A stretch of 43,883 nucleotides of DNA, taken from the IMG/VR virus record IMGVR_UViG_3300020215_000082, positions 1 through 43,883 of that record; one strand, 5' to 3'. Positions 22,019 to 29,190 of the stretch are shown one piece after another; position 1 is the first letter of the stretch, and every line of letters starts with the position of its first letter. The notes below the pieces were generated by a model that was not told the DNA's origin, made no database searches, and was given only the letters and a program-made list of their open reading frames with translations. The translations under genes were made by a program, and so were the position numbers. Origin of the DNA: a virus.

Positions 22019-22748
22019 AGGTAGAAATTATTGATTTAAAGATTTGGTACGCAACTTGTGGCACAATGGCGTTTCCGTATGCTTTTATTTCATTTCGAGC
22101 CATCGTGACGGATAACCCATCGCCGTTGCGTACACCTCCGGTACATCCTGCCATCTCATCCCACGTTCTAGGGAAATAGTTGCGATGCTTGGAGAATGCC
22201 TCTTTCTTGAACTTAGGTACGCCGTTGTTCGACTCAAATCTCGGTAGTCTCTCGCAATTGGCGTCGGCAGCGATAATCCACAGTCTTTCCCGTTTGTGTG
22301 GGGCATTGACGGCGCGAGCTGGAATAACCAACGGTTGTACCTCGTAGCCCTCTGCTTCCAAGTCAGAGCACACCTGCTCGAATACCATTCCGTTGTTCCA
22401 AGTAATGAGTCCAGCAACATTTTCGCCCACAACCCATTGCGGTTGTACCTCTCGTATAACTCTAAGCATTTCCGGCCAGAGATAGCGGTCATCTTCTGTG
22501 CCTTGTCTTTTTCCTGCTTGGGAGAAAGGCTGACAAGGGAATCCTCCAGAAAGAACGTCAATTGTCCCTCTAAAGGGCGTACCGTCAAATTGTTTGATAT
22601 CAGTGAATCGTTGGACATTCGGGAAATTCTTAGTTAAAACTTTCTGGCAAAACGGATCGATCTCTACCTGAAACACATTTTCAAGCCCTGCCCACTCTGC
22701 CGCGAGGTCAAAGCCGCCAATACCGCTGAATAGTGAGGCGTGAGTCAT
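21972..22748 (-). CDS. C5-cytosine DNA methyltransferase
   Basis: A 258-residue enzyme that would methylate cytosine C5 in DNA using S-adenosylmethionine. All key motifs are present: I (FSGIGGFD at 7-14), IV with the catalytic Cys72 (GGFPCQPFSQAG), VI (GENV, Glu109), VIII (KRERLWI) and X (YGNAIVPQ). The target-recognition region between VIII and X is short, giving a compact enzyme. The start overlaps the upstream stop as ATGA. It probably protects the phage from host restriction; no cognate nuclease is next to it. A second-frame ORF of 177 codons lies wholly inside this gene (22085-22618). Confidence 0.95.
   Translation of the reverse strand: MTHASLFSGIGGFDLAAEWAGLENVFQVEIDPFCQKVLTKNFPNVQRFTDIKQFDGTPFRGTIDVLSGGFPCQPFSQAGKRQGTEDDRYLWPEMLRVIREVQPQWVVGENVAGLITWNNGMVFEQVCSDLEAEGYEVQPLVIPARAVNAPHKRERLWIIAADANCERLPRFESNNGVPKFKKEAFSKHRNYFPRTWDEMAGCTGGVRNGDGLSVTMARNEIKAYGNAIVPQVAYQIFKSIISTYDQTNESKEDAQRIP
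22085..22618 (-). CDS. Overprinted ORF nested in the methyltransferase gene (second frame)
   Basis: A 177-codon frame, offset from the methyltransferase frame and entirely within it. The product has sensible composition and contains SPKQEKDKAQKMTAISGRK, LTWKQRATRYNRWLFQLAPS, LSLPTPIARDYRD and an ending MGYPSRWLEMK. I recall phage proteins with the same LTWK / LFQLAPS / LPTP-RD / MGYP-W signature order, but this cannot be verified here. Because the methyltransferase motifs are conserved, its second frame will also look conserved, so coding must be shown independently. The start at 22618 lacks a ribosome site; an internal Met (22492) has AAGG 8 nt upstream. Confidence 0.4.
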   Translation of the reverse strand: MSNDSLISNNLTVRPLEGQLTFFLEDSLVSLSPKQEKDKAQKMTAISGRKCLELYERYNRNGLWAKMLLDSLLGTTEWYSSRCALTWKQRATRYNRWLFQLAPSMPHTNGKDCGLSLPTPIARDYRDLSRTTAYLSSRKRHSPSIATISLERGMRWQDVPEVYATAMGYPSRWLEMK

Positions 22749-23240: not shown

Positions 23241-23693
23241 TTATTTAATGTTATATGCGGCTTTGATAAGACGGATGCGCTCGAGTTGGTCTTCGCCAGA
23301 GGCTCTTTCAGGCAATATAAATCCACAATGGTAATCAGCACGGTCACGTGGGCATTTTTCAAATGTGTTACCCTCAATATGCAAATACGAAGTAATAAAC
23401 CGGTAAAACTCATCCTTCTCCGGCATCGGAAACTTGTATATATGCTTCTTCAGGTCTACTACAGCCTGGGCTTGTTCATGCGTGCGGTAGATGTTGCCAA
23501 TTGCTTGTCGAAGCTCATCATAAAACAAAGCATCATCCCACTGTTTTTCTCTAACAATGCCACTATCAGAAATGCAATAGTACGAATCTCCCACCTTAGG
23601 CCACTCCTGGCTGTCCTCCTGTTCGAGTTGTTTTATGTATTCTCCGAGTCTTTCGTAATCCTTGCGGGCTTGTTCTAGTGTGATTTTAGTCAT
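23241..23693 (-). CDS. Hypothetical protein
   Basis: A 150-residue soluble protein. It starts with a coiled-coil-like helix (LEQARKDYERLGEYIKQLEQ), then a segment of the form WPKVGDSYYCISDSGIVREKQW, which is a recurring phage N-terminal pattern of unknown function, and a mixed alpha/beta remainder with CPRDRADYHCGF. It is 1 nt from the next gene and overlaps the VRR-NUC stop by 4 nt. Function unknown. Confidence 0.65.
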   Translation of the reverse strand: MTKITLEQARKDYERLGEYIKQLEQEDSQEWPKVGDSYYCISDSGIVREKQWDDALFYDELRQAIGNIYRTHEQAQAVVDLKKHIYKFPMPEKDEFYRFITSYLHIEGNTFEKCPRDRADYHCGFILPERASGEDQLERIRLIKAAYNIK

Positions 23694-24046
23694 GTGAGTT
23701 GGTAATTAAATTTATATCCCCGCTTGGCGAGCTCTCCGGTTACATCTTCGAGAGAACGTGCCACTATTGCGATTGCTCCTGCTTCTTTTAACCGCTGTTG
23801 AAACCATTCTTGCTCTGGTCTGACATCTTCATCTGGACGCTTTACCTCGATAAATATGGCCTTCCCATCTATTACTCCGGTGATATCTGGTTGTCCCTTA
23901 AAATCGTAAATATTGTTAGATTTTTGCCATATACCTTTTTTTTCGTTGTAGTGGCCTTTTACATTTACCTTCCACGCGAATATTCCCACGGCGTTTAACC
24001 AACCGAGAATCTGATATTCGATGTATTTTTCTTTAATCGGCTCCAT
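23690..24046 (-). CDS. VRR-NUC domain nuclease
   Basis: A 118-residue protein equal to a stand-alone VRR-NUC module (PD-(D/E)XK superfamily). The core reads GQPDITGVIDGKAIFIEVKRP, with the catalytic Asp and the E-x-K of the active site, followed by the helix QEWFQQRLKEAGAIAIVA that is conserved in this family. Phage VRR-NUC proteins act on branched DNA, often as Holliday-junction resolvases. The start lies inside the upstream gene by 14 nt. It fits the recombination set with the exonuclease, SSB and RadA-like protein. Confidence 0.88.
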   Translation of the reverse strand: MEPIKEKYIEYQILGWLNAVGIFAWKVNVKGHYNEKKGIWQKSNNIYDFKGQPDITGVIDGKAIFIEVKRPDEDVRPEQEWFQQRLKEAGAIAIVARSLEDVTGELAKRGYKFNYQLT

Positions 24047-28598: not shown

Positions 28599-28670
28599 TT
28601 AGAGAGTGATGAGAATTGCGAGCGCTAGGCCTATAGCCCAGCAGAGAGAGAATTTTTCGAAAGATGTCAT
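28599..28670 (-). CDS. Putative 23-residue membrane peptide
   Basis: MTSFEKFSLCWAIGLALAIL plus ITL: an amphipathic start followed by one hydrophobic helix. Its ATG overlaps the stop of the preceding gene (ATGA), a strong hint of translational coupling. Many phages encode such peptides near the start of the early operon. Tentative because of its size. Confidence 0.4.
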   Translation of the reverse strand: MTSFEKFSLCWAIGLALAILITL

Positions 28671-28897
28671 GCTAATGCTGGGTGAAGATGTCCTTTCAAG
28701 CGTTCCAGACGATGCGTAAGTAGCTCGATTTGAAGCTCGGCTTCCTCGCATTGTGCGGTTACGTGGGCTGGGATCGGATGATTGCGTTGTCGAAATAGCA
28801 TTTCGTAGTCCTCGCACTGCTTCATGACGAGTAGCCAATGTTCGAGCCGGCTTTCGATCTTCTGGATTTGAACTTGAATAAATCTTTTGTTTTGCAT
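28667..28897 (-). CDS. Small coiled-coil protein, first gene of the leftward early block
   Basis: A 76-residue protein of nearly continuous helix (MQNKRFIQVQIQKIESRLEH ... EEAELQIELLTHRLERLKGH), predicted coiled coil with heptad hydrophobics. I chose the ATG at 28897, because longer in-frame forms would run through the leader with its terminators. It is the first gene downstream of the promoter at 29191-29219. Possibly an early host-takeover factor; no family recognised. Confidence 0.6.
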   Translation of the reverse strand: MQNKRFIQVQIQKIESRLEHWLLVMKQCEDYEMLFRQRNHPIPAHVTAQCEEAELQIELLTHRLERLKGHLHPALA

Positions 28898-28921
28898 ATG
28901 ATGTAGATGATTGGTTAAAAG

Positions 28922-28950
28922 ACCGCATTTCTGACGAGGTGCGGTTTTTT
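28922..28950 (-). terminator. Bidirectional-looking hairpin terminator in early leader
   Basis: ACCGCA (28922-28927) and TGCGGT (28940-28945) pair across a 12-nt loop. On the plus strand the hairpin runs into T6. On the minus strand it is followed by C and TTTT, so it can terminate leftward transcripts 25 nt before the first early gene. Confidence 0.6.
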
Positions 28951-28980
28951 CGTGCAAATTTCTGTATTTTAGCAGAAAAT

Positions 28981-29010
28981 TTGACGAAATCGGTATAAAT
29001 GTGGTACAGT
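28981..29010 (+). promoter_or_regulatory. Candidate rightward promoter upstream of RHH regulator
   Basis: TTGACG (28981-28986), 18-nt spacer, and TACAGT (29005-29010) preceded by TGG (extended -10). It resembles the TTGAC-N17-TACAGA promoters at 30352, 30879 and 36072 and would transcribe the RHH gene at 29256. An inverted repeat AATTTCTG/CAGAAAATT (about 28958-28982) overlaps the -35 and is a possible operator. Confidence 0.45.
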
Positions 29011-29042
29011 AGTGGGGCTGCCAATCTCTTTTTTGCGTGTAT

Positions 29043-29127
29043 GCAAAAAAAGCCCGCACAAGGTAGATTACACCCGTTACACTTGACATCTAACACCGAT
29101 GGCTGATGAGAAGGATATGTGCGGGCT
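29043..29127 (-). terminator. Leader attenuator/terminator of the leftward early transcript
   Basis: In the leftward direction AGCCCGCACA (29127-29118) pairs with TGTGCGGGCT (29060-29051) across 57 nt, followed at once by T7 and GC. It stands about 60-130 nt after the predicted start of the transcript from the promoter at 29191-29219. The large loop contains smaller pairings (TAGAT/ATCTA), so competing folds are possible. It looks like an attenuator or an antitermination site. No ligand or protein is evident. Confidence 0.55.
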
Positions 29128-29190
29128 CCTGGATAGAGCATAGCAGCTGGTGTAAATAAATCAAGCATAACTGTGATGTAATCTGCAACA

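Follow-up and report, generated by a model that had tools for sequence, protein, structure and literature searches.

A conserved second reading frame nested in phage C5 methyltransferase genes most likely encodes the small-domain subunit of a two-polypeptide enzyme

Background

The viral DNA analysed here (the whole stretch of 43,883 nt, hereafter the window) contains on its minus strand a gene for a C5 cytosine methyltransferase, part of which is also open in a second frame over 177 codons. Does this second frame encode a protein, and if so, what would that protein have to do with the enzyme in whose gene it lies? A preliminary description of the locus had taken the frame for a fully overprinted gene, whose product might be a control or target-selectivity partner of the methyltransferase or else an independent anti-host protein.

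Canonical C5 methyltransferases consist of a large domain, which carries most of the conserved motifs, and a small domain with a variable recognition region and motif IX (PMC3404938). In M.EcoHK31I, motifs I-VIII and X reside in the larger subunit, in which the recognition domain has also been predicted to lie, and motif IX is found in the smaller polypeptide; the second subunit of M.AquI carries motifs IX and X (PMC3404938). A methylase gene may also harbour an unrelated out-of-frame gene, as exemplified by the HNH endonuclease of the ShiLan domain in a mycobacteriophage methylase (PMC11855218).

Results

The nested frame was found where it had been described, on the minus strand (Table 1). 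We refer to the product of frame 0 as alpha and to that of the second frame as beta. The ATG of beta at position 22618 is offset by 130 nt from the alpha start, which places beta one base forward of the alpha frame (+1), and with its stop codon at 22085-22087 beta lies fully within the alpha ORF. Its product contains the peptides LTWKQRATRYNRWLFQLAPS, SLPTPIARDYRD and MGYPSRWLEMK that had been singled out before. At its start alpha overlaps the upstream ORF by an ATGA (22745-22748), which is consistent with coupled translation. The window holds one other same-strand pair of nested ORFs, at 28599-29168 and 28667-29089 (189 and 140 aa).

Table 1. Features of the methyltransferase locus (positions in the window)
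Feature	Position	Strand	Assignment or evidence
Alpha, C5 cytosine methyltransferase, 258 aa	21972..22748	-	catalytic large domain, motifs I-VIII and X, without motif IX
Beta, nested +1-frame ORF, 177 aa	22085..22618	-	predicted small-domain subunit (recognition and motif IX)
Beta motif IX, residues 154-174 (MRWQDVPEVYATAMGYPSRWL)	22097..22159	-	hhalign; four-fold identity 0.84-0.86
Conserved beta hairpin, residues 84-104 (ALTWKQRATRYNRWLFQLAPS)	22307..22369	-	AF2 pLDDT and invariant residues
Alpha unstructured linker, residues 163-215	22104..22262	-	occupies the place of recognition domain and motif IX in single-chain enzymes
Alpha motif IV, GFPCQ catalytic loop	22530..22544	-	sequence; G69, P71, C72 and Q73 invariant in 48 relatives
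Alpha motif X, GNAIVPQ	22056..22076	-	hhalign of alpha 218-248 to single-chain residues 285-315, E 0.001
Candidate beta start region	22559..22618	-	ATG 22618, TTG 22588, TTG 22561

Alpha matches the Pfam family PF00145 (DNA_methylase) with an E-value of 1.6e-53, though only over profile positions 1-179 of 324. Its AF2 model (pLDDT 83) superimposes on M.HhaI with a Z score of 24.5 and an rmsd of 2.6 Å over 212 residues and shows a confident large domain without a small domain; over most of the linker the pLDDT is about 50. Aligned with single-chain bacterial enzymes, the alpha profile covers their residues 5-176 and 285-315 only. The preliminary description had credited the methyltransferase frame with all catalytic motifs; by motif scan and profile alignment this holds for motifs I-VIII and X but not for motif IX, which sits in the second frame. 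Alpha therefore does not combine, as single-chain enzymes of the M.HhaI type do, a recognition domain and motif IX with motifs I-VIII in one chain.

The missing motif forms the C-terminus of beta (VPEVYATAMGYPSRW). Residues 154-174 of the beta profile align to motif IX of the single-chain enzymes (RKLTPRECARLQGFPETFK, their residues 259-279) with an hhalign E-value of 0.0027, as against 0.77 for a reversed-profile control, the match being a short one. Alpha and beta are thus complementary along the single-chain enzyme, beta supplying this segment and alpha the two named above. In the beta hairpin the AF2 pLDDT reaches 84-93 over most residues, and W87 and L101 are invariant in 79 sequences. 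Modelled alone, beta as a whole is poorly predicted (pLDDT 65), and no usable fold match was found in the PDB for this low-confidence model, which does not make the fold a new one. A PDB sequence search with beta gave no match, nor did beta match a domain in Pfam, NCBIfam or PADLOC, the first two yielding only scattered weak matches. Beta is, however, a member of PHROG_1008 (2.4e-19; all 79 aligned betas match), a family labelled 'DNA methyltransferase', although this label names a catalytic activity that beta itself does not carry.

Relatives were collected by tblastn with beta, which gave 80 phage records, and by a beta-profile search of viral contigs and bacterial genomes, which gave 106 loci. 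Because these loci had been chosen by beta itself, a second set (n=80) was picked by methyltransferase motifs only. Beta lay opposite alpha in the same relative frame in all of the first eight phage records inspected and likewise in 198 of 198 loci including the window, and in 193 of these the matched part of beta down to its stop falls wholly within the alpha ORF. No stand-alone homologue of beta was found among phages, plasmids, viral contigs and bacterial genomes; every beta inspected lies opposite a methyltransferase.

Most annotations inspected omit beta. Depositors did annotate the nested gene in the Paenibacillus larvae phages Lily (gp63, 'g62 internal gene') and Shelly (gp56, 'g55 internal gene'), assigning it an independent start, and in Escherichia phage K1G (ORF30, 'putative Mte8-like protein', nested with ORF31). 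The pairs gp62/gp63, gp55/gp56 and ORF31/ORF30 have the same nested arrangement as the window, and their records give no mechanism; a paper describing the nested gene of phages was not found in the literature searched. In two plasmid records it is the beta frame that was annotated as the gene (a hypothetical protein and a 'DNA methyltransferase'), and the overlapping catalytic alpha is unlisted (L199:1760-2851 and L201:2219-2968). The E. coli phage ChristineMuster_Bas80 contains an unannotated nested beta with 0 stops against 5.2 expected (L233:1104-1901), and at another locus (L177:2074-3696) the open beta frame extends over 541 codons within a 599-codon alpha ORF. At three loci alpha is broken by a stop codon and beta is open (L032:2174-2176, TAG; L044:1967-1969, TAA; L083:1964-1966, TAG), for which sequencing error, decay or recoding are candidate readings.

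Is beta preserved for its own sake or only carried along by the methyltransferase? We counted stop codons in the region that begins with motif IV and ends short of motif X, and compared them with the number expected after shuffling synonymous codons within each gene. Among 168 related genes the +1 frame contains 4 stops as compared to 514 expected, where the expectation takes codons as independent and the counts, coming from mutually related loci, are not independent events. The other same-strand frame of these genes is not depleted (2320 versus 2353), and the antisense frames show no depletion comparable to that of +1. The same is seen in 73 relatives selected by methyltransferase motifs alone, with 1 stop versus 229 expected in +1 and 1020 versus 1044 in the other same-strand frame. 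The frame is hence uninterrupted in relatives, which was one of two checks proposed in the preliminary description. The other, whether the methyltransferase is limited in its synonymous variation within the overlap, also came out in favour of a fully overprinted gene: identity at four-fold sites is 0.60 in the overlap as compared to 0.36 upstream of it and 0.33 in motif X, and it peaks at 0.84-0.86 over alpha codons 193-216, which are the codons of beta motif IX.

Conservation of beta moreover exceeds what the methyltransferase codons force. The beta of the window is on average 0.34 identical to those of 178 relatives (best 0.44), whereas 0.22 is expected from alpha alone with shuffled synonyms, and the expectation was exceeded in 300 of 300 random pairs. 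At alpha codons 193-216 the first codon position is the most variable (0.50) and the third is conserved (0.65-0.69), opposite to what an ordinary gene shows, and conservation is 0.57 in the beta frame as compared to 0.39-0.45 in the alpha frame. Because the codon-position pattern is reversed there, beta is the dominant frame in this segment; over motifs IV-VIII it is alpha that dominates (0.62 versus 0.42 for beta). The second ORF is conserved by selection of its own and is not simply forced by the methyltransferase codons, and which of the two frames dominates changes along the gene. Kinship of the loci notwithstanding, the effects are so large that hardly any doubt remains on this point.

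For comparison we examined the C5 methyltransferases of 24 bacterial genomes. Nineteen of them are single-chain enzymes, with 6-21 stops in +1, as shuffling predicts, and with motif IX in frame in most cases, a few divergent motifs having been missed by the pattern. Ten other bacterial genes contain 0-1 stop in +1; in frame no motif IX could be found in them, and in 9 of these 10 the motif (PxFVxEMMGFP-like) is located in +1. In this sample the overlap therefore occurs only where alpha is without motif IX.

The layout varies among actinophages (loci L238, L239, L242, L241, L234, L237 and L240). JewelBug, EagleEye and Phanphagia carry an AquI-like second ORF in +1 that comprises the recognition region and motifs IX and X. 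Shauna1, Phasih, Moonbeam and CheeseTouch have motifs IX and X in the alpha frame, yet the N-terminal half of beta is still open in +1. Shauna1 and Phanphagia, which are of the same species, thus carry motif IX in different frames. We take it as a lead, the loci being few and related, that motif IX switches frame among actinophage relatives.

As to its expression, beta probably initiates internally, with the ATG or one of the TTG codons as candidate start. An ATG precedes the conserved beta core in 131 of 142 loci; in the window a start scan detected no clear Shine-Dalgarno sequence upstream of the ATG at 22618, and TTG 22561 is preceded by GAGG. Family-wide, synonymous constraint sets in near alpha codons 49-60, somewhat upstream of TTG 22561. 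RNA structure at the beta start was nothing unusual (z 1.14), and a promoter scan gave no excess over shuffles.

Discussion

Very probably, both polypeptides of a two-chain m5C DNA methyltransferase are encoded by one and the same stretch of the window, and beta is its internally initiated small domain. Alpha would fold as the catalytic, SAM-binding large domain, and beta, initiated internally in +1 on the mRNA of alpha, would contribute the small domain with the recognition element and motif IX. The two chains would then associate into the DNA-binding cleft that is formed by one chain in single-chain enzymes, and activity would be expected to depend on beta. To judge from the motifs, beta is most likely the small-domain (recognition plus motif IX) subunit, since it carries motif IX and since the pattern of stops is reversed in single-chain enzymes. 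Of the roles considered in the preliminary description, that of a target-selectivity partner is the one which the complementary motif content of alpha and beta supports.

But could the second ORF not have arisen merely from the codon choice of the methyltransferase, without being translated? Part of the +1 peptide is indeed dictated by alpha, as the expected identity of 0.22 indicates, and chance ORFs are common in the window. These effects, however, would account neither for a frame-specific depletion of stops of about 130-fold nor for raised synonymous conservation that is confined to the overlap, nor for the excess in beta identity and the reversal of the codon-position pattern at motif IX; and single-chain methyltransferases of the same superfamily show no stop depletion. 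We consider this explanation extremely improbable. Somewhat less remote, yet still very unlikely, is that beta is a separate protein, such as a regulator or an anti-host or anti-restriction factor, which merely shares the methyltransferase DNA. Overprinted phage genes often have unrelated roles, and the lack of a database domain in beta would be in keeping with one. Against this, beta was never found apart from an alpha of the motif-IX-less type, its C-terminus aligns to precisely the piece that is missing in alpha, and in the bacterial sample the overlap goes along with that deficiency. The earlier proposal of an independent anti-host protein fares no better, given that all 198 loci have beta opposite the same methyltransferase and that no stand-alone homologue came to light.

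It is similarly unlikely that ribosomes switch frame inside the gene, so that the second product would be the alpha N-terminus joined to beta. The absence of an obvious Shine-Dalgarno sequence before ATG 22618 would fit such a mechanism, but the onset of synonymous constraint near the same alpha codons across the family, the ATG preceding the conserved core in the large majority of loci and the independent start given to the nested gene by the depositors of the P. larvae phages all argue for internal initiation.

How does the putative two-polypeptide enzyme compare with known ones? By motif criteria it is like M.EcoHK31I (YGGCCR), in that motifs I-VIII and X are in alpha and motif IX is in a small polypeptide. 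The likeness also extends to the layout, with beta in another frame within the large-subunit gene: Lee, Kam and Shaw are reported to have described in 1995 a beta protein of M.EcoHK31I of about 176 aa that is read from the alpha gene in a different frame, and both proteins were reportedly required in vitro. However, because the recognition domain of M.EcoHK31I has been predicted in the larger subunit, where nothing but an unstructured linker is seen in the phage alpha, the point of the split may differ. M.AquI (CYCGRG) is likewise a naturally split C5 methyltransferase, the break falling between motifs VIII and IX in its variable region; there the second subunit carries motif X as well, whereas in the phage enzyme motif X is retained by alpha, and the beta frame lies entirely within the alpha gene. 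The Mycobacterium phages JewelBug, Phanphagia and EagleEye are closer to AquI. With the ShiLan domain the locus has in common that a phage methylase gene encloses another gene in a different frame, but the ShiLan domain is a mobile insertion coding for a homing endonuclease and not part of the enzyme.

M.EcoHK31I is part of a restriction-modification system, whereas a scan of neighbouring genes at the phage locus revealed none that looked like a restriction enzyme. The phage enzyme is therefore likely a solitary, protective methyltransferase, which would shield the phage DNA from host restriction.

Previously familiar from one or two restriction enzymes, the nested two-frame arrangement proves to be the rule for this class of phage C5 methyltransferase, which goes beyond the M.EcoHK31I precedent. 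Individual phage cases had already been annotated; the scale of the phenomenon and the frame changes of actinophage motif IX are less expected. It is about an even matter whether the overlap is a reciprocal overprint, in which alpha is the older frame over motifs IV-VIII and beta the older one over the recognition region and motif IX, and in which the alpha linker is new, as if the recognition part had slipped by one base and been rescued by internal initiation. As part of the same evenly balanced reading, the two-frame layout may be normal for a large class of phage C5 enzymes, and beta may add a recognition module beyond motif IX, because in actinophages motif IX changes frame and the N-terminal half of beta stays in +1.

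Two subunits appear to make up the phage C5 methyltransferases of the nested-beta class, and most of the annotations inspected lack the second. If such a methylase were cloned as one ORF with optimised codons, beta would be lost, and the enzyme obtained could be inactive. As a natural instance of dual coding the overlap is moreover unusual for its length, which reaches 541 shared codons at one locus, and for its replication.

Two further ORFs of the window may be mentioned. A VRR-NUC-like protein is encoded near the methyltransferase at 23690-24046 (Pfam 1.3e-4, just under the cut-off), and such a protein is also found near the methyltransferase in an E. coli prophage (L198:2115-2408) and in a Bacteroides phage (L236:1-328). 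A 268-aa ORF at 13335-14141 matches the PADLOC mad8 model weakly and only in part, over 62 residues (2.4e-6).
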